Below are positions 29,358 through 47,138 of a DNA stretch of 64,000 nucleotides, piece after piece. The DNA is from Leucobacter sp. Psy1. GTDB taxonomy: Bacteria; Actinomycetota; Actinomycetes; Actinomycetales; Microbacteriaceae. Location of the stretch: assembly GCF_020096995.1 (NCBI RefSeq), contig NZ_CP083692.1:1860001-1924000 (forward strand), written 5' to 3'. The position numbers and the translations under genes are program-made. Position 1 is the first letter of the stretch. Each line of letters begins with the position of its first letter. The notes beneath the pieces were generated by a model. It searched no databases. It saw nothing but the letters and a program-made list of their open reading frames with translations, and was not told where the DNA came from.

Positions 29358-30623
29358 TCACGCCTCGGGTTTGACCTCGCTCCCTTCGACTCTGCCGACC
29401 CGAGCTGAGGGAGCAAGGGATAGCGCGTGCACAGCTGACATAGCGAAGGGTTCGCCCTCGAGGTCAGCCACGTAACGATCAGGGGTGCCTTCTACGTCGA
29501 GTAGTTTCACTCCTGCGCGATTGCAGATTGAGGCAAGGTGGTCCGCAAAGTGATTCTCATTGAACTGACCGTAGCTCGTCAGGAGGAATCTCGACTGCTT
29601 TCGAGTGTCCTTGAGAGATACCCCCGTCCCTGCAGCTAAAATCTCCAAATATCGAGCCGCTGCGGTCCTTGGCTTGCCATACATCGGAAAATCGTGAGCG
29701 GATATGCCGGGCATACTATTTAGTTCGCAAATGTTTACTTCCTGATCCGAGGCAGGGAGGGTGTAATCCTCAAGAAGGATATCTACGCCGACGAGTTCAA
29801 TCGACGGCAACGTTTGCTTCGCTCGGACAGCAATAGCCTTAAGCGAAGGGTGTGTTTCGTCAGTGATCTCGATGTTGTCTCCGCCGGAACTGAGATTCGC
29901 CGCGCTTCTTAGATAGATCTTCTCACCTGCTGATGGGACGTACTCGAGGGTCAAACCTGAGCGTTTCAAGTGGTTTAGCACCAACGCGTCTTTCTTGATG
30001 GGCCGCGTCGCAAGATGTGGATTGGTGCCCCGGATCTCATTTTTGCTGTCAATGAGCTCGTCCAATGAGGAACGTCCATCACCCATCACGTTAGCCGCGT
30101 CTCGACGCCAGACACCGATCACCTCTTCACCAGCCACTAGGAATCGATAGTCCTCACCGCCGACGTGCTTTTCAATAAGGAAGCCCATCGGGGAATCGAC
30201 TCCTTTAATCGCGAGTCGCAGTTCCTCCTCGCTGGTTATATTCGCAGTCACCCCTTTTCCTCCTTGCCCATTCAGTGGCTTGACAACCACGGGCCAACCA
30301 TGCAATTCCACAAACCGCATGGCAGATTTGGTTCCCTTGTGAGGCATTCTGAGTGCGGGAGCAGTGGGAACTCCCGCGAAACGCATCATACTTTTGGCAA
30401 TCGCCTTATCTCTACAAGCCCGATTTCCGACAATCGACGTGAGTGTACTCATCGCACCGTAGAAGCTAAGGCTCTTGCCTCCGTCATCCACTGCAGTAAA
30501 CATTGATCGACTAAAGCGCCTCGACGATAGTCCAAACGAGAGGGAAGCTCCTTCAAGGTTCGCACTCTCCGTCGAGCGAGAGAGAAGCAAGAGCGGGTGA
30601 TTGCCGTAGTTATTCGCTGTCAT
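29358..30623 (-). CDS. ATP-grasp ligase, cyanophycin synthetase/GshB-like, last gene of surface-polymer operon
   Basis: The 421-residue protein has an ATP-grasp core: GWPVVVKPLNGQGGKGV with Lys115, IEKHVGGEDYRFLVAGEEVI, Asp281 (VGVDILLED), and Glu300/Asn302 (NICELNSMPG). The sequence around EDYRFLVAGEEV is like the ATP-grasp domain of CphA and GshF. It should activate a carboxylate as acyl phosphate and join it to an amine. The first 60 residues are unlike CphA, and no MurE-like ligase domain is present. It overlaps the preceding nucleotidyltransferase gene by 4 bp. The DNA is visibly more AT-rich than the flanking core genes, which suggests transfer. Substrates are not known. Confidence 0.88.
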   Translation of the reverse strand: MTANNYGNHPLLLLSRSTESANLEGASLSFGLSSRRFSRSMFTAVDDGGKSLSFYGAMSTLTSIVGNRACRDKAIAKSMMRFAGVPTAPALRMPHKGTKSAMRFVELHGWPVVVKPLNGQGGKGVTANITSEEELRLAIKGVDSPMGFLIEKHVGGEDYRFLVAGEEVIGVWRRDAANVMGDGRSSLDELIDSKNEIRGTNPHLATRPIKKDALVLNHLKRSGLTLEYVPSAGEKIYLRSAANLSSGGDNIEITDETHPSLKAIAVRAKQTLPSIELVGVDILLEDYTLPASDQEVNICELNSMPGISAHDFPMYGKPRTAAARYLEILAAGTGVSLKDTRKQSRFLLTSYGQFNENHFADHLASICNRAGVKLLDVEGTPDRYVADLEGEPFAMSAVHALSLAPSARVGRVEGSEVKPEA

Positions 30624-31273
30624 TCTTCGTCTTTCTCTTGGAAGTTTCCGATCGTTCGGGACCGGAATCGCTCTGACCTCGCCGTGAAGTCAAATAGATC
30701 TTCAGGGGTATTGAACCCCGCAGTCAACCCGTCCAATCGTTCGAAATCTTGCGCTATCGTCTTCCCTCCGAACGGAAGCCCGGCAGCAGACTGGTACAGC
30801 TGCCATCCAATGCACGAGTCAATCTCTCCCGCGAGAAAGAGTTCGCGCACCCTCGTGAGATGGGTCAAGAACTGCTCTCTGCATCTCGACTGCACCGCCA
30901 CGATAGATCGATCGTCACCGAAGAACTGCAGGCCCGGCCGTTTCGAAGCGACGATTCTCTCGATGGCGCCATCGGAGTAGAACGTATCGCCGTAGAGGAA
31001 GCACACGTGCTCGGTGACGAGCTCCGGGACAAAACGATCGATCTCGAGACTGTCTCGGTGCGGTCGGTGCCGGCGCGCGCCCTCGGTATCGTAGCGCGGA
31101 TCTCCTGACGAAATGAACACTTCCGCTGTCGGATCGGCTGCCTTCACTTGCCGAACAATCCGTCTCAGCAAGGTTTCCCCGTCGAAAGTGATGAGATGCT
31201 TCGGAATCCCAAGGTGACCGCCCCAGCGCATGCCTTTGCCGTTCGCCATCACCACATATCGGTTGCCGCTCAT
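30620..31273 (-). CDS. Nucleotidyltransferase family protein (NTP-transferase fold)
   Basis: The 217-residue protein starts SGNRYVVMANGKGMRWGGHL and IPKHLITFDGETLL, which is the G-x-G-x-R/pKhL pattern of sugar-phosphate or polyol-phosphate nucleotidyltransferases. FLYGDTFYS supplies the metal-binding Asp. Its size is like IspD/TarI-type cytidylyltransferases, but the sequence does not fix CTP or the sugar. It overlaps both neighbours by 4 bp, inside the operon with a CDP-glycerol transferase-like gene. It may make the activated precursor for the polymer, or modify a sugar phosphate. Confidence 0.82.
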   Translation of the reverse strand: MSGNRYVVMANGKGMRWGGHLGIPKHLITFDGETLLRRIVRQVKAADPTAEVFISSGDPRYDTEGARRHRPHRDSLEIDRFVPELVTEHVCFLYGDTFYSDGAIERIVASKRPGLQFFGDDRSIVAVQSRCREQFLTHLTRVRELFLAGEIDSCIGWQLYQSAAGLPFGGKTIAQDFERLDGLTAGFNTPEDLFDFTARSERFRSRTIGNFQEKDEE

Positions 31274-32322
31274 CGGATCACCCCGTGCGCGCGGTAGAAG
31301 TCGCCCAGCTCACCGCGTCCCTGGGCACCCCAGATCTGGATGATGTTGACGCCAGAGGAGGTATTGGCCTCGATAATGTACGGGCCGTCCTCGGCGATCA
31401 GGATGTCCCAAGCGATGAACTGCAGGTACGGGAACGCCCGAGCGACGTCCATGACCTGAGTTTTGACTGTCGTCCATTCGGGTACCCGACTTCCGAGAAT
31501 CGGCGTCCCCGAGTCGGGGTGCATCGTGTGCGATTCGTTCGACCATAGAGTGCGGGCTTCAGTCAACACACCGGAGTCTAGATCGATCTTGGCAACGAGG
31601 CCCCCACGGCTCCCATTGTCCACCGGCACGGTCTCGGCAGTCCCGATCCGCATAACGGCAAAGAAGATCTTCAACTCACCGCTGTGCGGGTCCCGGAGAG
31701 TGATGAGACGAACGGTATTGCTGGTATCCGGATAGAGCCGCGCGATGTCTGGGTGCTGCTCGATCCCCTCGGAGAGGAACCACCCATCCTCCTCGGTTAG
31801 GAGCTCCCGGATCGACTCCGCCGAAACCTGACGACGATCCAGCTGAAATGCCCCGAGCTCAGCATCGAGTCGATGAACCCCCTTGCCCCGGCCGGAGCCC
31901 AGCGGCTTCAGGAACAGTGTTCCCTCTTGCTGCAAGGTCTCGAGCACCTCGTCGATCGCGCGAAGGGCGTCGGGCCGCTCAAGGGACTTCACTCGCCCCT
32001 TGTTCTTCACATAGAAAATACGCGGCACTTTGATGTGATGCTGCAGAATCTCGTTGCAGACGATTTTGTTGTTGAGCATCGAGTCGAATGGCTCGTTGAT
32101 CCACCGCGACCGGTACCAGTCGAACTCCGAGAGGTACGTTCCTCTCGGCTGACGCTTGAGATCGTAGAGCGCAACCTGATCGGCGACGTAGCCACCGAAA
32201 CACGCGAACCTGAGACGTGTAAACAACGACACACCAAACCGGTTCGGTGCGAGAAGGATACGGGTGATCCAGAGGTATGCGAGCTTCGCTCGCTTGAGGT
32301 TACGTTTGATCAGCGGGAGCAC
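31270..32322 (-). CDS. Sugar-transfer-associated ATP-grasp protein (ATPgrasp_ST type)
   Basis: The 350-residue protein has the ATPgrasp_ST pattern: GTLFLKPLGSGRGKGVHRL with Lys139, a middle segment LSEGIEQHPDIARLYPDTSN, a GGLVAKIDLDSG lid, Asp306 (FIAWDILIAEDG) and Glu318/Asn320 (YIIEANTSSG). Such enzymes are predicted carboxylate-amine ligases found with polysaccharide genes, and are thought to attach amino acids or peptides to cell-surface polymers. The substrate is not established. The first 30 residues are basic and hydrophobic and may touch the membrane. It overlaps both neighbours (4 and 13 bp). Confidence 0.9.
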   Translation of the reverse strand: MLPLIKRNLKRAKLAYLWITRILLAPNRFGVSLFTRLRFACFGGYVADQVALYDLKRQPRGTYLSEFDWYRSRWINEPFDSMLNNKIVCNEILQHHIKVPRIFYVKNKGRVKSLERPDALRAIDEVLETLQQEGTLFLKPLGSGRGKGVHRLDAELGAFQLDRRQVSAESIRELLTEEDGWFLSEGIEQHPDIARLYPDTSNTVRLITLRDPHSGELKIFFAVMRIGTAETVPVDNGSRGGLVAKIDLDSGVLTEARTLWSNESHTMHPDSGTPILGSRVPEWTTVKTQVMDVARAFPYLQFIAWDILIAEDGPYIIEANTSSGVNIIQIWGAQGRGELGDFYRAHGVIR

Positions 32323-33449
32323 AGTCCCCCCTCGTCGAAAATGTGGTTCGCAAGATCCGAGGTTGATTGACCAGGGTTCTCGAAGATGAACTTCGACTTG
32401 TACCGCTGCAGCGCTTCCACCGGGTACTCACCCTCGAGCGCCCTCCCGAGTTCAACCGCATCTGAAAAGACGCACTCCGGCATCTCCTGGGGAAGATCGA
32501 TGTTGATTCCTCCGCTACTCGCGAAATACTCCTCGGCATCGTAATGAAAGTAGAAGGTCTTGACGTCAATGAGCGCCGCTTCCAACGCAATCGAGGAGTA
32601 ATCGGTGATGACATAGTCCGCCACCGTAAGCATTTCAAGAGAGTTAAACCCTGAGCATTTGAAGTGCGGAATGTTCGGCATCGCGAGATCGTCGTCCTTG
32701 TGCCGCTTGATCACGAGATTAAAGCGATCAGTGTCGATCACTTCCGCCAGCATCCGCGCGCCGGGCACGTTCGCTTGGTGCCTGCGAAAAGTGGGCGTGT
32801 ACAGCACTATCGGTTTCTTCATCACCTCTGGGTACTTCTTGGCTACCATTGCAGCGATTCGCTCGCGACTATTCAGCAGGTAGTCCGCGCGAGGCAATCC
32901 GATGTTGAGAATCTGATCATCGCTCACATTGAATGCTGCGCGATACTCGGGATTCCAAACTTTCGCGCCTGCGACGACATAGTCGTAGCCAGCATGCATG
33001 CGCATCGATCGAGCAGCCAAAGTCGAGCGGCCTTGCTCGGTATCCAAAGCCTGAAAACCAGTTCGCTTGATTTTGCCAAGCGAGTGCCAGATCTGAAAGA
33101 CGACGAGCGACTTCTTGTGATTCAGAATTGACACCGCTGGCCAATAGGAATCTAAAACGCACACCTTTGAGGTGGCGAGCTCGTACAGGCTTCGCAGTAG
33201 TGAAGGAATGAATCGCCAGGAATCACGTGTTCCTCCCTCGAACTGCTTAGAGATCACAACCACTTCTACTCGAGAGTCGCGTCGTTTCAACTCAGCGATC
33301 AAGAGACGAAAGTCCAGAGGGACGCGATCGACGTGTCGCCCGAGAAACACAACCTTATTCGGGTTCACGAGAGTGACCCGTTTGAGCAACCAGTACACGA
33401 CTGCCATGAGTGTTTTTGCGGTGTGGATCTTTACCCAGCTGAGTATCAT
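32310..33449 (-). CDS. CDP-glycerol glycerophosphotransferase family protein
   Basis: The 379-residue protein fits the TagB/TagF (Glyphos_transf) family. It has VVFQIWHSLGKIKRTGF, TPTFRRHQANVPGAR, VIKRHKDDD and the hallmark ADYVITDYSSIALEAAL. These enzymes transfer glycerol phosphate (or ribitol phosphate) from CDP-alditol to a growing wall teichoic acid-like chain at the inner membrane face. The length suits a single-step or short-chain transferase rather than a large polymerase. It overlaps the ATP-grasp_ST gene by 13 bp and the long triple-unit gene by 4 bp. The DNA is notably AT-richer than the window average. Confidence 0.9.
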   Translation of the reverse strand: MILSWVKIHTAKTLMAVVYWLLKRVTLVNPNKVVFLGRHVDRVPLDFRLLIAELKRRDSRVEVVVISKQFEGGTRDSWRFIPSLLRSLYELATSKVCVLDSYWPAVSILNHKKSLVVFQIWHSLGKIKRTGFQALDTEQGRSTLAARSMRMHAGYDYVVAGAKVWNPEYRAAFNVSDDQILNIGLPRADYLLNSRERIAAMVAKKYPEVMKKPIVLYTPTFRRHQANVPGARMLAEVIDTDRFNLVIKRHKDDDLAMPNIPHFKCSGFNSLEMLTVADYVITDYSSIALEAALIDVKTFYFHYDAEEYFASSGGINIDLPQEMPECVFSDAVELGRALEGEYPVEALQRYKSKFIFENPGQSTSDLANHIFDEGGLCSR

Positions 33450-36400
33450 GCGGTGCGGTCCGGGAGCTTGATGAGCGAACGCGGAGGCTTCACGTCATAG
33501 CCGTACAATCGCTTCTTCTGCTCGAGCTTGAACAGGAGATAGTCGACTGTCGCGGGGGTCAGGCGATCGATGCGCGGATAGTCGGGGAAGCGGTTGATCT
33601 CCGGCAGCTTGATACCGTTCTCGGTGATCGCAACGTCGAAGCCGAGGTACTCGAGCTGCGGAAGCGACTCGGCAATTGCGAGCACCTGCTGCTTGGCGCG
33701 TTCCCACTCCGGGATGACGCCCTCAATAAGTACCCCCGTATCGGGGTGCACACGACAGGCCTCGACGCGACCTTTCTCCAGCCACTGTGCGTTGCCGAAC
33801 TCACCGGTCTCGGGGTCGATTTCCGCAAGCATTCCACCGGCGGCGGTGTTGTCGACGAAGCCCGATTTCAGGGAACCCACTCGAAGATATGCGTTCCCGA
33901 TCTCCGGCGTGACACCATCCTTCTTGAAAACGATCATGCGAATGGTGTTCACGGAGTGCGGATACATCTTCGCGATCTCCGGATGCATCTCGATGAACTC
34001 CGTGATCAGGTACTGGTTCTCCGGATTGCTGAGGATCGCAAGTACGCTCTCCTCCGTCGCCGGTTCACCATTCAGCGAGTACGATCCGGACTCGTACGTC
34101 AGGCGGTAGAAGCCTTCCCCGTGCGAACCCTCGTCGGGTTTCAGCGCGAGTGTCCCGAGTTCGCGTGCCAGACGGAGGATCTCGGGGAAAGACGGCTCGA
34201 ATCCGTCAGGGCAGTCCATCATCGGGACCACATGATTCACTCCCCCCTGCTGGCTCGTGTAGAAGTAGTAGGCCGGCAGGCACTCGTTGAACTCGGCGGC
34301 GACATACTTGATGCTGATCTTGTCTTCGAGCCAGTACTTGTATTTCTTATTGATGTGGCGAAGCCAGCGATACTCGAAATCCGAGATGAACTGCGTGCGA
34401 TTCTCCGGCGTGATCCCGTACTGGGGGATACGGTAAGAGAGGAAGCCATTCCGGTACGCCCACAGCTTGGTTTGCAAGGAAATGCCGTTTCGCTGCATCA
34501 GGTCACGCCGCATGTCTCCGAGCCATCGCACTGACTGATACGGGACCAGCCCCTCGGGATACAGTGCCGCAGCGAACTGCTTGCGGGCCTTCAGCTTTGC
34601 ATTGCGCAACCACTTCGCGGAACGGACCGTCCGCTGGTGCGTCCTCTCACGCTTCCGGTCGATCCGTTCGCGCAAGAAGGCGGTCGTCGTCCGCGAGAAG
34701 GGGAAGTGCGCGCTGTATGGAGGCATCGCCGAGATACCCGTAATGCAGATGGCTTCGGTTCCCGGAGAGACGGCGAACTCGACAAACTCGAGCTGCGGAG
34801 TGAACCGGCACATCTCGACCAGCCGTTCGACGGTCTCCGACCAGTTCGGAATCACGCCCGCGATCCGCTCGCCGGTCGCCGGGTGCTTCGCATACCGTAC
34901 CAGGCGCCCGTCCACGATGGCTCGGGCTCCGCGAAAAGAACCGTCCCGAAGGCTCACACGGCAGACGAACGATACTCGCTCGAGCTCTTCCAACCGGTCG
35001 TCTTCGTCCTCGATCGTATCCTCACTCTCAACGCGGATGTCATCGGCATCGGCCTCGCTCCGTGGTCCCCCGATATCCTCGCGGTGCTCCGCCCGAGCCA
35101 GTTCTGCCTCAGCCTCCGAAACACCGTCGATGCTCAGAGTCGACGTGTGCACACTTTGCGGCCCGCCTCGTTTCAGGATCCCGCGCGGAATCTCTTCGGT
35201 AAAGATCAGCGTCGCCTCCGCCGCGCGGGGATCCGTGCCGTCGGGGTTGATCATCGTGATCCGGAGATCAGTCTTCGCCAAGTCCGAAAGACCTTCGAGG
35301 CTTTCAGCGCGGACCGGCTCGATGAGCACGTAGAACTGGTCTCGAACACGATAGGTCAAGAGCTTCTCGAACTCGTCGCGAGAGTAGCTCGCATCACCAA
35401 CGGTGAACTCACCCTCTGAGTACCCGATTTCGAGATGGGTGCCACCACTCCATGCTGACGAAACCAGCGTCAGTGGCGAATGCTCCTCGATGAACGCTGC
35501 GATCCCGTCGACGGATGCAGGGAAGGCCTTCGCCTCATCGCTCAGAGGAATGATCTGGAGCTCTTTGTCCCGACGCAACACATGGAAGTGCGTGGGCTCG
35601 AACGACTCCTGGAAGGGTTCGAACACCGTGTGCGCGGAGATCCGGTCACGCACCCACTTGCCGTACTTTCCGTTAAGAGGATGAACGAAGCTGTAATCAC
35701 GTTCTGAAACAAAGCTGTCGACGTTGTCCGAGTCGATCCGGAAGTTCTCAACCGTGGCGGGAAGGAACCCCCAACGATGTGCTTGTTCGCGCTTCTCCCC
35801 AGAAAATCGGTCGTCCCGGCGTTTATCCTCTTCGAGGCGTCTCACCCAGGAACGTGCCATGCGCCCGGTGAAGCCCGCCGACCGGAGGTGGAATGAGCGG
35901 GATCGACGTCGGAGTCGCCGACGCCGTCGATCGAGTTGCTGGAACGCGGTCGGCTGGGACTTCTGCAGCTCCTCAACTTTCTTCCGCCGTTCACTCAGTT
36001 GCACCCGCAAGAACTCATTCGCCGCCTGGCTGAAGAGACGGCCCTTCGGATAACGCGGGTGCATAGAAAAGTCAACGACGACAAACCCTCCTTCTCCGGT
36101 GAGAGCAACATCGACAACGATGAAGCGGAAACGGAGGTGGTCGGCGCTCAGCATGCGCTCGACCTCGCCGACACACTCCGCGAGGCCGCTGAAGCGCTCG
36201 ATCTCGAGTTCGATCTCCTCGACAACCGCGAAGCGCTGCTCACCGAACCTCAAACGTTGACGTCGTTTCTCCCATCCACGTCGAACGGAGCGGGACGCGC
36301 GGGCATCGTGAACTTCACTGAGAGTTGGCGTGGCAGGTCGCCAGCTATCGTCGATCGCCAGCTCAGCGTCGAGGACCCGTGCTTCCGCCCCATCTGCGGA

Positions 36401-37264
36401 CTTGCCGACATACATGCGCACCACCGCATCATTCGCTCCGACGAGTGAACCGGTGTACTCCGGTGCGACGCTGTGAGCAGCGAGCACGCATCGCCTTCGT
36501 GTGGTCATATCGGCCAGCATGCCGAGCACGGCCTCGTTCGTGGTCGGCCAACCGTCGACAGTGAACTCTTGGCCATCCCACTTCACCACGCGGCCGACAC
36601 CACGGTCCCAGCGCAGCGGGACAACGCTGACGGAGCCTTCGCGCCGAATGAGGTCGAGCAGACCCGACGCCGCCGCGGGTAGGTCACTGGGATAGTCCCG
36701 GAACCGCACGATATCGAACCCACGTGGGCCTGTGAAGACCGAGCAGAACTGTCGCGGCGTCCGAGCAATCAGTCCGGGGATCGCACGGTTCGCGATCACC
36801 CGGTTGAGCAGCCAGCTTCGTCTGGTATTGATCGGCGAGATGAACCTGAAGTCACGCTGCGAGATGACTTCTTCTCCGTCCAGCTGTCGCACGAGCGTGT
36901 AGGTCTGACGAGTGAACCCCGCCGTATGCGCGGCCCCACACTCCGTTCCGCGCTGATCGGTCGAGCGGCGATCCCGCAGCACCTCGCGCGTCCAGAGTCG
37001 GGCAGCTCGCTTCGTGAACCCCTCGCTGATGAGCGGGCGTGAAACCACCCCGATTATTGCCTTCTTGGCGCGGTTCTGTAACTCTCGTGCGATACCCAAC
37101 GTACGATTCCCGATTACCGGCTGTCCTCGCGCCTTCCCGGAAGCATCCACTGAAGATGGGCGCGATCGTCGAGGAGTAGTACACGCGGGGCCATGAATCT
37201 CGCACTTTCGTCGGGGAACAAAAGGAGAGCCATTCGCAGCGATCTCCCAGGCAATACGGCACAA
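33446..37264 (-). CDS. Triple-unit ATP-grasp (ATPgrasp_ST) protein: two degenerate units and one intact
   Basis: The 1272-residue protein contains three homologous units: about 90-430, 490-880 and 900-1272. Unit 3 has all key features: Lys1042 in TLALKPDEGSHGEG, Asp1210 in LGFDVAITENG, Glu1222 and Asn1224 in LPEINRFPDYP. Unit 1 keeps Asp385 but has lost the ATP-binding lysine (VVPLRWDRG) and has Asp398/Ser400 in place of Glu/Asn. Unit 2 lost the lysine (TLVSSAWSG), the Asp (Ala831) and Glu/Asn (Gly843/Ser845). A highly acidic linker occupies 730-765. Only unit 3 should be catalytic. The start is uncertain: the TTG at 37264 opens the frame, and the first about 80 residues look unconserved. It heads a tight five-gene operon. 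Confidence 0.87.
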   Translation of the reverse strand: MCRIAWEIAANGSPFVPRRKCEIHGPACTTPRRSRPSSVDASGKARGQPVIGNRTLGIARELQNRAKKAIIGVVSRPLISEGFTKRAARLWTREVLRDRRSTDQRGTECGAAHTAGFTRQTYTLVRQLDGEEVISQRDFRFISPINTRRSWLLNRVIANRAIPGLIARTPRQFCSVFTGPRGFDIVRFRDYPSDLPAAASGLLDLIRREGSVSVVPLRWDRGVGRVVKWDGQEFTVDGWPTTNEAVLGMLADMTTRRRCVLAAHSVAPEYTGSLVGANDAVVRMYVGKSADGAEARVLDAELAIDDSWRPATPTLSEVHDARASRSVRRGWEKRRQRLRFGEQRFAVVEEIELEIERFSGLAECVGEVERMLSADHLRFRFIVVDVALTGEGGFVVVDFSMHPRYPKGRLFSQAANEFLRVQLSERRKKVEELQKSQPTAFQQLDRRRRRLRRRSRSFHLRSAGFTGRMARSWVRRLEEDKRRDDRFSGEKREQAHRWGFLPATVENFRIDSDNVDSFVSERDYSFVHPLNGKYGKWVRDRISAHTVFEPFQESFEPTHFHVLRRDKELQIIPLSDEAKAFPASVDGIAAFIEEHSPLTLVSSAWSGGTHLEIGYSEGEFTVGDASYSRDEFEKLLTYRVRDQFYVLIEPVRAESLEGLSDLAKTDLRITMINPDGTDPRAAEATLIFTEEIPRGILKRGGPQSVHTSTLSIDGVSEAEAELARAEHREDIGGPRSEADADDIRVESEDTIEDEDDRLEELERVSFVCRVSLRDGSFRGARAIVDGRLVRYAKHPATGERIAGVIPNWSETVERLVEMCRFTPQLEFVEFAVSPGTEAICITGISAMPPYSAHFPFSRTTTAFLRERIDRKRERTHQRTVRSAKWLRNAKLKARKQFAAALYPEGLVPYQSVRWLGDMRRDLMQRNGISLQTKLWAYRNGFLSYRIPQYGITPENRTQFISDFEYRWLRHINKKYKYWLEDKISIKYVAAEFNECLPAYYFYTSQQGGVNHVVPMMDCPDGFEPSFPEILRLARELGTLALKPDEGSHGEGFYRLTYESGSYSLNGEPATEESVLAILSNPENQYLITEFIEMHPEIAKMYPHSVNTIRMIVFKKDGVTPEIGNAYLRVGSLKSGFVDNTAAGGMLAEIDPETGEFGNAQWLEKGRVEACRVHPDTGVLIEGVIPEWERAKQQVLAIAESLPQLEYLGFDVAITENGIKLPEINRFPDYPRIDRLTPATVDYLLFKLEQKKRLYGYDVKPPRSLIKLPDRTA

Positions 37265-38032: not shown

Positions 38033-39187
38033 TCAGGCGCCGTGGCGGGCTCGCTTGGAGGCGGGCTCGCTGACTTCCCGAACGGGTGGCTCCTCGCTAT
38101 CGCGATGATTCTGAGTGGCCAGGCGATGCTGAAGCGACCCGGGTACCGGCGCGCGTGCCGGTTTCGGTTGCAATGACTCTTGCTGTACTGGTTCCTGCTG
38201 CACAGGTGCTTGTTGCATCGGACCTCTCGGCGACTGAGCAGTCTGCTGCACCGTCGTCGGCGTCGACTTCGATGCCGACTCCGTCGCAGTAGCGGCCGGC
38301 TTCCCAGCTATATGCTGTCGAGCGGCCGACCCCTGGTCACCAGCCGGCTTCTGCTGAGCCGCAGGCTTCTGTGTTGCGGGCTTCTGAGCCCCGGACTTCT
38401 GAACCCCAGGCTTCTGCGCCGCGGGCTTCGGAACCCCAGCCTTCTTCGGATTCATCAGCGCAACTGCCTCGCCGATGGCACCGTCGAAGACCTTCTTTCC
38501 CTTCTCGAGAACGATCCCGCGCTGGCACAGCTTCTTTACCTGCGCCGCGTTGTGACTGACGATGAACATCGTTTTACCCTGGTCCTGGAGCTCCGCGATC
38601 TTGTCGTTGCATTTCGCACGGAACGGGGCATCGCCGACCGAGAGAATTTCGTCGACGAGCAGCACATCGAGCTCCGTATGCACGGCGACCGAGAAACCGA
38701 GACGCGAGTACATTCCAGAGGAGTAGCGCTTGACCTCGGTATCGATGAACTCACCGATCTCGGAGAACTCGAGAATCTGTTCGAATCGTTCGTCGGTCTC
38801 CTGCCGACTCATGCCGAGAATAGCCGCGTTCAAGTAGACGTTTTCGCGACCGGTGAGGTTCGGATGAAACCCTGCTCCGACTTCGAGGAGGCCCGCGACA
38901 CGCCCCTGGGTGCCGATCCACCCCGCCGAGGGTCTGAGCACGCCGGAGAGCAGCTTCAAGGTCGTAGACTTGCCCGACCCATTGCGACCGAGAACGGCGA
39001 TCGATTCCCCGGGGTAGACCTCGAAGCTGAGATCGTCCACAGCGTTGAACTGTGTCGTGCGCGGACCGCGGCGAAATGCGGAAACGAATGCTTCTTTCGC
39101 CGACCGAGACTTCCTGATGTTGAAGGTCCGACGCACATTCTCGAAGACGATGCAGGGATCGACTGGTGCGTTAGAGGTGCTGGGCAA
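38033..39187 (-). CDS. Teichoic acid/polysaccharide export ABC ATPase, TagH/Wzt-like with repetitive tail
   Basis: The 384-residue protein has an ABC domain typical of polymer exporters: Walker A LGRNGSGKSTTLKLLSG, GFHPNLTGRENVYLN, signature YSSGMYSRLGFSVAVH and Walker B VLLVDEILSVGD. The catalytic part ends near residue 245. The rest is a Pro/Ala/Gln/Lys-rich tail with repeated KPA(A/T)QKP-like units, then Gln-rich repeats, and ends in a basic segment. This tail replaces the usual Wzt/TagH C-terminal domain. I prefer the TTG at 39187, with GGAGGGG five bases upstream. It overlaps the end of the permease gene by 17 bp. Confidence 0.88.
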   Translation of the reverse strand: MPSTSNAPVDPCIVFENVRRTFNIRKSRSAKEAFVSAFRRGPRTTQFNAVDDLSFEVYPGESIAVLGRNGSGKSTTLKLLSGVLRPSAGWIGTQGRVAGLLEVGAGFHPNLTGRENVYLNAAILGMSRQETDERFEQILEFSEIGEFIDTEVKRYSSGMYSRLGFSVAVHTELDVLLVDEILSVGDAPFRAKCNDKIAELQDQGKTMFIVSHNAAQVKKLCQRGIVLEKGKKVFDGAIGEAVALMNPKKAGVPKPAAQKPGVQKSGAQKPATQKPAAQQKPAGDQGSAARQHIAGKPAATATESASKSTPTTVQQTAQSPRGPMQQAPVQQEPVQQESLQPKPARAPVPGSLQHRLATQNHRDSEEPPVREVSEPASKRARHGA

Positions 39188-40049
39188 AGTTCCCCTCCAT
39201 CCTTCGGAAGACCAGCTGGCCGACGAGCAGAGTACCGATCGCCAGGCCGAATCCCGCAAGCGTGTTCGTGAGTAGCTGCTCAGGGCGCACCGCGGTCTCA
39301 CCTGCAACCTGGACCACGGGAAGCCAGAAGGTCTCGTGGAAGAGTTCCACTGCAACGGTGACCGGGTTCACCATATAGACGTAGTAAAGCCACACTGGCA
39401 CGAGATCCCGGATCAGCACGAACGGGTACAGGACCGGCGACGCCCATGTCGCAAACATCAGTATGACGCCCACGGCGTTCTTCGCATCTCGGAATGCGAC
39501 GTTGAGCGCACTGAAGAAGAGTGCGAGCCCGAGCGCGAAGATGAAGACGACAACGAGGGCGACGAGAAACATCGCCAACTGCATCAACGAGAACGTCCAC
39601 CCTACGATCAAGCACACGATGAACAGCAGAGCTACCTGCGGAACGAAGTGAATGAAGGCAGACCCCACTGCGGCGACGGGAAAGAGTTCACGCGGGAGAT
39701 AGATCTTCTTGACGAGACCGGCACTGCTCGTCACCGAGTTCGTACCCGATCGGACTGCCTCGGTGAAGAAGTTGATGACGATGATCCCGGAGAAGAGATA
39801 TACCGGGAAATACGCCACGCCCCGATCCACCCCCAAGACGATCCCGATCATCACGTAGTACATGAGGAACTGAGCAGCGGGACGAATGTACGACCACAGC
39901 CATCCGAGGGCGGAACCGTAGTAACGGGTCGTAATGCCCTTCTTCAGGAGCAGGCCGAGCAGGTGACGGTACGAGAAGACATCCAGGAGCCATCGACTCG
40001 CGCCGGGCTCGTCATATCGAGCGTGCGATTCATGCGTAACCTGGGACAC
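39171..40049 (-). CDS. Teichoic acid/polysaccharide export ABC permease, TagG/Wzm-like
   Basis: The 292-residue protein has an amphipathic start (SYRHLLGLLLKKGITTRYYG), the pattern GSALGWLWSYIRPAAQFLMY, and six predicted membrane helices of the ABC-2 type. This is characteristic of TagG/Wzm polymer export permeases. With the ATPase it would flip a lipid-linked glycopolymer across the membrane. The start is taken as the GTG at 40049 because TAAACT lies 8 nt upstream. An in-frame start at 40106 would lie inside the gabD terminator hairpin. The polymer made by the operon at 29358-37264 is the obvious candidate substrate, but this is inference. Confidence 0.9.
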   Translation of the reverse strand: MSQVTHESHARYDEPGASRWLLDVFSYRHLLGLLLKKGITTRYYGSALGWLWSYIRPAAQFLMYYVMIGIVLGVDRGVAYFPVYLFSGIIVINFFTEAVRSGTNSVTSSAGLVKKIYLPRELFPVAAVGSAFIHFVPQVALLFIVCLIVGWTFSLMQLAMFLVALVVVFIFALGLALFFSALNVAFRDAKNAVGVILMFATWASPVLYPFVLIRDLVPVWLYYVYMVNPVTVAVELFHETFWLPVVQVAGETAVRPEQLLTNTLAGFGLAIGTLLVGQLVFRRMEGNFAQHL

Positions 40050-40092
40050 AGGTGTGTAGTTTATCGTGAACCCCCGATCTCTGCAGCACACG

Positions 40093-40128
40093 AACGGGCG
40101 CCCCACCCCGAGGGGTGAGACGCCCGTT
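40093..40128 (-). terminator. Terminator hairpin downstream of gabD
   Basis: The arms AACGGGCG (40093-40100) and CGCCCGTT (40121-40128) pair perfectly. Inner CACCCC/GGGGTG pairing extends the stem with a short loop. It lies 17 bp after the gabD stop codon. Confidence 0.8.
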
Positions 40129-45748: not shown

Positions 45749-47056
45749 GGCGGTTTCAGGGGGCTAGTGCAACACCGCTGATCAACTCGTCCAGCCTCTC
45801 ACGCGGCGTGTAAAACCCCAACGTCTGACGCGGGCGACCGTTCAAGAGCTCCTGCACCTGGGCGATCTCCCCGTCACTGACACCATTGAAATTGGTTCCC
45901 TTGGGATAAAAATCACGGATCAACCCATTGAGGTTCTCGTTCGACCCCCGCTGCCAGGGCGAGTGCGGATCACAGAAAAACACCCGACACCCCGTCGCGA
46001 CCGTGAACTCAGCATGCCGAGCCATCTCGACCCCCTGATCCCACGTCACCGTCTTGCGTAACTCCCCGGGCAACCCCTCGACCATCTCTTGCATCACCTG
46101 AACCACCGTGGCCGAGTCCCGCACCCCGGGAAGCCTGCCGATCAACGCGAACCGAGTCTGCCGCTCCACCAGCGTCACCAGTCCAGAGTTCCCCGGACCG
46201 ACCACGAGATCCCCTTCCCAGTGCCCAGGAACTGCACGATCAGCAACCTCGGCAGGACGATCCAATAAGTGCGCCCCGTCCAACCACGGACGCCTCGTCC
46301 GCGCCGGCAGCTTGGACTGAGGGATGCGCCCGGTCCGTCCCGAACGGAGCGCTTTCTCGACAGTGAGTTCGTGCCGCAGGGCACCGGCGCCTTGCACGTA
46401 CAGGGCTTGATAGATCGTTTCGTGCGACACCCACAACTCCGGACTATCGGGGAACTCGACCCGCAACCTGCCAGCGACCTGCTGCGGCGAACACTTCGCA
46501 TTCAACCTATCGGCCACCAATGCTCGCAGGAACGTATCGTCGAGCTTTCTTGTTCGGGGAGATCTGCGCAGCAGCATCGTCCGATACTGGCTCGTCACAG
46601 CGTGATACCTAGAACCCCCGCTCCCAGCGTTCCCGTTCGGCAGGGGAGGGCGGGTCACTGGATGACGCCTCACCTCCCGAGACACTGTCGATACGTTCAC
46701 TCCGAGATGCCGGGCAATCCGGCGATATGACCAGGCAGGTTCCATGCCGAGCGCGGTCTCGATGAACACCCGCTCTTCCAACCCCAGACGATGGTAAGCG
46801 CGCCCCGGGGAACGTTCCGCATCAGTAAGGTCTGCCCGGCGTGCATACCTGCGTGAGGTGTCCATGCCCGCTAGCCTGGCCCATTTCGTCACCGTGTTCC
46901 GGCTCATACCTCGCCCAGCAGCGACCGCTTCAATCGACCCGACGCGCACCACCTCGTTCAAGACAGCGGACCATGCCTCGTCCGAGTAGTTCCTCGGCAC
47001 CCTTGCCATACACACCTCCATCAATGAAGGTGTTGCACTAGCCCCCTGAAACCGCC
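45749..47056 (-). mobile_element. Intact IS30 family insertion sequence
   Basis: The ends carry a perfect 25-bp inverted repeat (45752-45776 and 47029-47053) that extends to 28 bp by the flanking GGC/GCC. With that extension the element is 1308 bp and is flanked by GCG on both sides (45746-45748 and 47057-47059), a possible 3-bp target duplication. If the element ends at GGTTTC instead, the duplication would be GC. The single transposase gene is complete and its stop codon lies in the left repeat. It sits in the gap between thiL and the DUF3515 gene and spares both promoters. Confidence 0.93.
45756..47009 (-). CDS. IS30 family transposase
   Basis: The 417-residue protein has N-terminal HTH regions (EAVAAGRGMSRNTVTKWARL; YRRIARHLGVNVSTVSREVR), and an IS30-type integrase core. 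The DDE residues are in PGHWEGDLVVG, TWDQGVEMARH and RGSNENLNGLIRDFYPKG. All three are present, so the enzyme looks active. The ATG at 47009 is preceded by GGAGG (GTGTGT spacer). The longer open frame reads through the right inverted repeat and is not needed. Confidence 0.95.
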   Translation of the reverse strand: MARVPRNYSDEAWSAVLNEVVRVGSIEAVAAGRGMSRNTVTKWARLAGMDTSRRYARRADLTDAERSPGRAYHRLGLEERVFIETALGMEPAWSYRRIARHLGVNVSTVSREVRRHPVTRPPLPNGNAGSGGSRYHAVTSQYRTMLLRRSPRTRKLDDTFLRALVADRLNAKCSPQQVAGRLRVEFPDSPELWVSHETIYQALYVQGAGALRHELTVEKALRSGRTGRIPQSKLPARTRRPWLDGAHLLDRPAEVADRAVPGHWEGDLVVGPGNSGLVTLVERQTRFALIGRLPGVRDSATVVQVMQEMVEGLPGELRKTVTWDQGVEMARHAEFTVATGCRVFFCDPHSPWQRGSNENLNGLIRDFYPKGTNFNGVSDGEIAQVQELLNGRPRQTLGFYTPRERLDELISGVALAP

Positions 47057-47138
47057 GCGTTCCACGGGGCCACTTGTGCTCACTCGATGATGCGGCCACG
47101 CTCAGGGCGCATGGCGGGTGCCCCGGTAGGCTGGAACC

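Follow-up and report, generated by a model that had tools for sequence, protein, structure and literature searches.

Why would one bacterial protein carry three ATP-grasp units if only one of them keeps the residues needed for catalysis? The question is raised by a minus-strand gene in the stretch of Leucobacter sp. Psy1 DNA analysed here (64,000 nucleotides, contig NZ_CP083692.1, positions 1,860,001 to 1,924,000; hereafter the window), for which an earlier note, made from the sequence alone, had proposed a 1272-residue protein with three homologous units. The open reading frame is indeed intact, running uninterrupted over 33446..37264 on the minus strand (1272 codons counted from a TTG). Nothing in the homologs corresponds to its first 55 residues; as full-length homologs begin near residue 56, the listed start was judged to lie too far upstream, and translation probably starts at the in-frame TTG at 37099, which would give a protein of about 1217 amino acids (33446..37099). 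Residue numbers follow the full 1272-residue frame throughout. Unit 1 (35981..37090, residues 59-428), unit 2 (34586..35980, residues 429-893) and unit 3 (33449..34585, residues 894-1272), all on the minus strand, are homologous beyond chance by two agreeing comparisons: blastp of unit against unit gave E values of 3e-14 (1 and 2), 2e-8 (1 and 3) and 1e-19 (2 and 3), and profile-profile comparison with the active family aligned nearly the full unit in the case of both unit 1 (98.4%, 5.7e-15) and unit 2 (99.9%, 4.9e-31). Unit 2 also carries an acidic, probably disordered insert (34991-35170 of the window, minus strand; residues about 699-758, or 271-330 of the unit), which is present in all five three-unit proteins and is short or absent in two-unit ones, and a strongly basic linker lies ahead of this unit.

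Canonical ATP-grasp enzymes feature a linker lysine before the first ATP lobe, a strand-2 lysine, a strand-4 aspartate in the second lobe and a last-strand E-x-N motif (PMC4431377). Unit 3 has the complete set (Lys982, Lys1042, Asp1210, Glu1222 and Asn1224), and all five residues are invariant in 24 active relatives, which include the second ATPgrasp_ST protein of the same operon. Unit 3 is an intact member of the sugar-transfer associated ATP-grasp family ATPgrasp_ST (PF14397), matched above the gathering score of 31.4 bits (E=1.3e-41, 143 bits for the whole protein, best stretch 966-1228). In keeping with this family, the gene lies in a cell-surface polymer locus, but the family model covers one unit, whereas the live unit here follows two dead ones that fall under the cut-off: in a Pfam search unit 1 alone gave no PF14397 match and unit 2 alone only a 16-bit piece. 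At the canonical positions, unit 1 has Arg155, Val215, Asp385, Asp398 and Ser400, and unit 2 has Arg541, Val601, Ala831, Gly843 and Ser845. These residues bear out the earlier reading, which had assigned Lys1042, Asp1210, Glu1222 and Asn1224 to unit 3, the loss of the lysine together with Asp398/Ser400 at the Glu/Asn positions to unit 1, and the loss of all four key residues to unit 2. The other canonical lysine, Lys982 in unit 3, is an arginine in units 1 and 2 and is missing from all 18 dead units examined. Unit 1 is less eroded than unit 2 because it retains the metal-site aspartate: Asp385, the equivalent of Asp1210, is kept in 5/5 orthologs, as is Asp398 at the Glu position, so residual nucleotide or metal binding by unit 1 is possible. 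The large subunit of carbamoyl phosphate synthetase (CarB/CPS1) also carries tandem ATP-grasp units in one chain, both of them active; in the window protein, by contrast, two of the three units are eroded and the chain is not catalytically intact throughout.

Units 1 and 2 are both predicted to keep the ATP-grasp fold. They were modelled with AlphaFold2 using ortholog alignments (pLDDT 81 for unit 1 and 79 for unit 2), and the top 50 matches of each model in a Foldseek search of the PDB are all ATP-grasp enzymes, with E values down to 1e-5. These include DcsG, RimK, PsnB, TTL and glutathione synthetase for unit 1, and PPIP5K2, Ddl, TTL, RimK, biotin carboxylase domains and CPS1 for unit 2. The TM-scores of these matches lie below 0.5 and are not strong alone, so the fold assignment is based jointly on the E values, the uniformity of the matches and the sequence-profile match. 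No solved homolog was found by sequence (best E 0.26, a RimK).

Is the loss a local accident? Full three-unit proteins are also encoded by Glutamicibacter uratoxydans, Brevibacterium senegalense, B. yomogidense and Ancrocorticia populi, while G292, a second species of the window's genus, and G051, from a different genus of the same family, encode two-unit proteins comprising units 2 and 3. The residue loss is common to five unit-1 and seven unit-2 orthologs, with both lysines and E-x-N gone in every one of them; unit 3 is intact and 69-76% identical, as against 32-39% identity to the window's unit 1 among the unit-1 orthologs. None of the homologs examined has a complete catalytic set in unit 1 or 2, so the loss is not local, and local decay or a frameshift is excluded because every ortholog has an intact frame and identical losses. 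The earlier note had named two findings that would refute its reading, a different fold in units 1 and 2 or homologs with catalytic residues in all units; both were looked for, and neither was seen. Unit 1 is absent from the otherwise similar G292 and G051 proteins and is thus dispensable for the core function; that it might be encoded apart from the fusion in these genomes was ruled out with a unit-1 profile, which found no separate unit 1 and matched only units 2 and 3 of the fusion and a neighbouring single-unit protein.

The gene is rare and patchy: within the window's genus, 2 of 54 species have it. Matches were found in 35 of 300 genomes of the family, nearly all via single-unit relatives of unit 3, and in 1 of 395 genomes of a class sample, namely the window's own. 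In another class of the phylum, an eroded N-terminal unit (N-unit) precedes an intact C-terminal unit (C-unit) in five genomes (G990, G1236, G1237, G1179 and G1201). The layout is conserved as dead-dead-live or dead-live in a small set of actinobacterial genomes. The earlier note knew of no characterised protein with this layout, and the open-licence PMC papers searched describe none: no paper there combines sugar-transfer associated with ATP-grasp, or has inactive, degenerate or pseudo ATP-grasp as a phrase. The layout is not unique, however, since a few actinobacterial genomes share it. ATP-grasp proteins that are reported or predicted to lack ligase activity include TTLL12 (PMC3520985) and a truncated graspetide branch-8 protein (PMC8939145), but these stand alone and are not fused in tandem ahead of a live copy. 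G990 holds two adjacent dead-live tandems (L071:8171-12647), whose N-units are eroded at different residues.

A 48-row tree recovers units 1, 2 and 3 each as one clade. The dead units form a single group that also takes in those of the other class (93/92, not starred); a starred group (99/89) unites units 1 and 2 with G1179_N and G1201_N, and four of the six live C-units cluster with unit 3 (100/100). The dead rows are long-branched, and the deepest joins are thus tentative. In 13 tandems, the distances between dead units parallel those between live units (Pearson 0.87, Mantel p<1e-4), which, together with the single dead clade and the grouping of unit 3 with most live partners, suggests that the fusion is old. 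The simplest history would start from an old dead-live tandem, with dead-dead-live arising when one lineage later duplicated the dead part.

The pattern of conservation suggests that the dead units are maintained. The five positions that the literature defines as catalytic hold the consensus in 12% of cells across the 18 dead units, compared with 39% retention at 30 other invariant columns (permutation p=0.03), a suggestive, not overwhelming, sign that catalytic positions were lost more than other invariant columns. Four of six N-lobe invariants (W914, G940, S961 and N972, numbered as in unit 3) persist in 89-100% of the dead units. In unit 2, 64 positions are invariant over seven proteins, 31 of them in the N-lobe (residues 30-138 of 465), and mean identity is 0.40 and 0.36 in the ATP-site regions versus 0.49 in the N-lobe. 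NG86 dN/dS for one Brevibacterium species pair is 0.44 for unit 1, 0.20 for unit 2 and 0.10 for unit 3, which in this pair points to purifying selection on units 1 and 2. Constraint on unit 2 thus seems to have moved off the ATP site, with unit 1 the least constrained of the three. Purifying selection, the conserved N-lobe and co-divergence with unit 3 make a non-catalytic role plausible, and the data are consistent with its retention.

Genomic context gives an indication of what that role might serve. The three-unit gene heads a minus-strand operon of five genes with successive overlaps of 4, 13, 4 and 4 bases. Its stop codon overlaps by 4 bases the start codon of a CDP-glycerol:poly(glycerophosphate) glycerophosphotransferase-type enzyme (PF04464; 32310..33449), which is followed by the second ATPgrasp_ST protein (31270..32322; a single unit of 350 aa with intact catalytic residues), a MobA-like nucleotidyltransferase (NTP_transf_3; 30620..31273) and a 421-aa ATP-grasp ligase that is similar to the corresponding domain of cyanophycin synthetase (29358..30623), the Glutamicibacter ortholog of which is fused to LRR-CapA. 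Cyanophycin synthetase itself (CphA1/CphA2) is a multi-domain amide ligase related to this neighbour, but its domains are N, ATP-grasp and Mur-like rather than an ATPgrasp_ST tandem. NCBIfam names were rejected for the operon genes, every match being far under cut-off (TarB primase, for example, at 110 of 500 bits). Upstream of the operon, across an rsmD-like gene on the plus strand, lie minus-strand genes for a TagH-like ABC transporter ATPase of the teichoic-acid export type (38033..39355) and a TagG-like ABC-2 permease (39171..40106); TagG/TagH-like genes also adjoin the cluster in Ancrocorticia and G990. Elsewhere in the window, a minus-strand reading frame (45756-47099) reads like an IS30-family transposase.

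The order multi-unit gene, PF04464, ATPgrasp_ST, nucleotidyltransferase is identical in the window, Glutamicibacter and Ancrocorticia, and is also kept in G051 with the two-unit form. In the Brevibacterium clusters the transferase and nucleotidyltransferase are not adjacent to the ligase, and the G292 cluster includes a polyprenyl sugar transferase. In three genomes of the other class (G1236, G1237 and G1179), a MobA-like nucleotidyltransferase homologous to that of the window operon is fused ahead of the dead-live tandem, from which we infer that the two share a substrate. Related clusters add LRR_5-CapA proteins, some of them fused to a MurF-like or cyanophycin-like ligase. This rare and patchy actinobacterial locus looks like a cell-wall glycopolymer cluster rich in amide ligases.

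We found no ATPgrasp_ST member with a tested reaction, and amide ligation by unit 3 is therefore proposed by analogy. The nearest characterised function is that of the C-terminal domain of Cj1438 from the Campylobacter jejuni capsule locus, a TupA-like ATP-grasp amidoligase that uses serinol-P or ethanolamine-P to amidate glucuronic acid (PMC11800379). Like unit 3, it is an ATP-grasp domain within a multidomain protein of a surface-polysaccharide locus, but it belongs to another ATP-grasp family and its partner domain is a glycosyltransferase, not a set of dead ligase units (PMC11800379); the window protein has no TupA family match in Pfam at E up to 1. By this analogy, unit 3 would bind ATP, activate a carboxylate as an acyl phosphate and join this to an amine. 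The carboxylate would most likely sit on a building block of a cell-wall glycopolymer, either a sugar acid or a sugar or polyol phosphate that bears an amino acid. The neighbouring nucleotidyltransferase would turn this block into a CDP derivative, the CDP-glycerol-type transferase would add it to the chain, and TagGH would export the polymer. Units 1 and 2 probably pack on unit 3, standing in within one chain for the partner of an ancestral dimer, and probably hold or present the acceptor. We give about even odds to the protein being such a carboxylate-amine ligase for a cell-wall polymer, ATP-dependent and with a single active site, whose two N-terminal pseudoenzyme units serve as a structural or substrate holder. 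More speculatively, and in our view somewhat doubtfully, the dead units would derive from one ancient dead copy, act as the built-in substrate-holding partner of the single live unit and, with the sometimes fused nucleotidyltransferase, channel an amide-decorated, CDP-activated block into a chemically undescribed cell-wall polymer. The earlier suggestion that pseudo-ligase units became scaffold or carrier domains is thus upheld in part: two dead units stand beside an intact one, and they may serve as scaffold or carrier.

Other explanations differ on the chemistry of unit 3 or on what the dead units do. Unit 3 could catalyze a different ATP-grasp reaction instead of amide ligation, with a polyol or sugar phosphate as the substrate for phosphoryl transfer or for ester formation. 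Inositol pyrophosphate kinases among the top fold matches of unit 2 and neighbours that are phosphate-polymer enzymes would fit such chemistry, but unit 3 is weakly related by sequence to RimK-type glutamate ligases and the clusters are rich in amide ligases (a Mur ligase, a cyanophycin-synthetase-like ligase and a second ATPgrasp_ST), and we consider this reading unlikely. We also see a small chance that the dead units were repurposed to bind a nucleotide, a metal or a CDP-activated intermediate as a regulatory or carrier site. Unit 1 would be the best candidate, as its acidic pair survives (Asp385 and Asp398, in 5/5 orthologs), and the nucleotidyltransferase fused to the tandem in three genomes would also favour this reading. 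Erosion is also graded: some distant N-units retain a lysine (G990b, G1236) or the asparagine (G1201), unit 1 keeps the acidic pair and unit 2 nothing. Against repurposing, no ortholog retains either ATP lysine in unit 1 or 2, and unit 2 is without any acidic ligand and less conserved at its ATP-site regions than in the N-lobe.

The dead units could also be duplication remnants that do nothing specific and are tolerated as bulk or as a linker. The fast evolution of unit 1, seen in both its low identity next to unit 3 and its dN/dS, and its absence from two relatives would agree with this. Yet no ortholog has a broken frame, both eroded units have dN/dS values under 1, unit 2 has its 64 invariant positions and the dead-live tandem is present in two classes, all of which makes mere remnants quite improbable. 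The holder reading is the one that we prefer for this unusual architecture. Pseudoenzymes are well studied among kinases and little among ATP-grasp ligases, and a graded erosion series beside a strictly conserved live unit makes the purpose of a dead ligase domain testable.

Several features of the related clusters were observed in passing. Large proteins that combine BspA-type LRR_5, CapA (PGA_cap) and MurF-like or cyanophycin-like ligase regions are encoded at L039:12306-17189, L038:15646-19086, L071:6128-8167 and L092:8934-10946, and L040, L041 and L042 also carry large proteins of the LRR_5-CapA/ligase type. LRR-CapA was considered as an obligatory partner, but the genome from which the window comes gave no PGA_cap match, and the idea was dropped there. 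In the G990 cluster, an alanine-dehydrogenase-like protein (L071:12686-13696) is encoded between the nucleotidyltransferase and the tandem ligases and may supply an amino-acid substrate; it was also considered as an opine synthase, but instead matches alanine dehydrogenase models, under cut-off. The single-unit ATPgrasp_ST protein of G1237 (L090:3312-4673) carries an insertion of ~100 residues in its core. Across the clusters, LRR_5 is joined to several different ligases, as if it were a shared docking domain.
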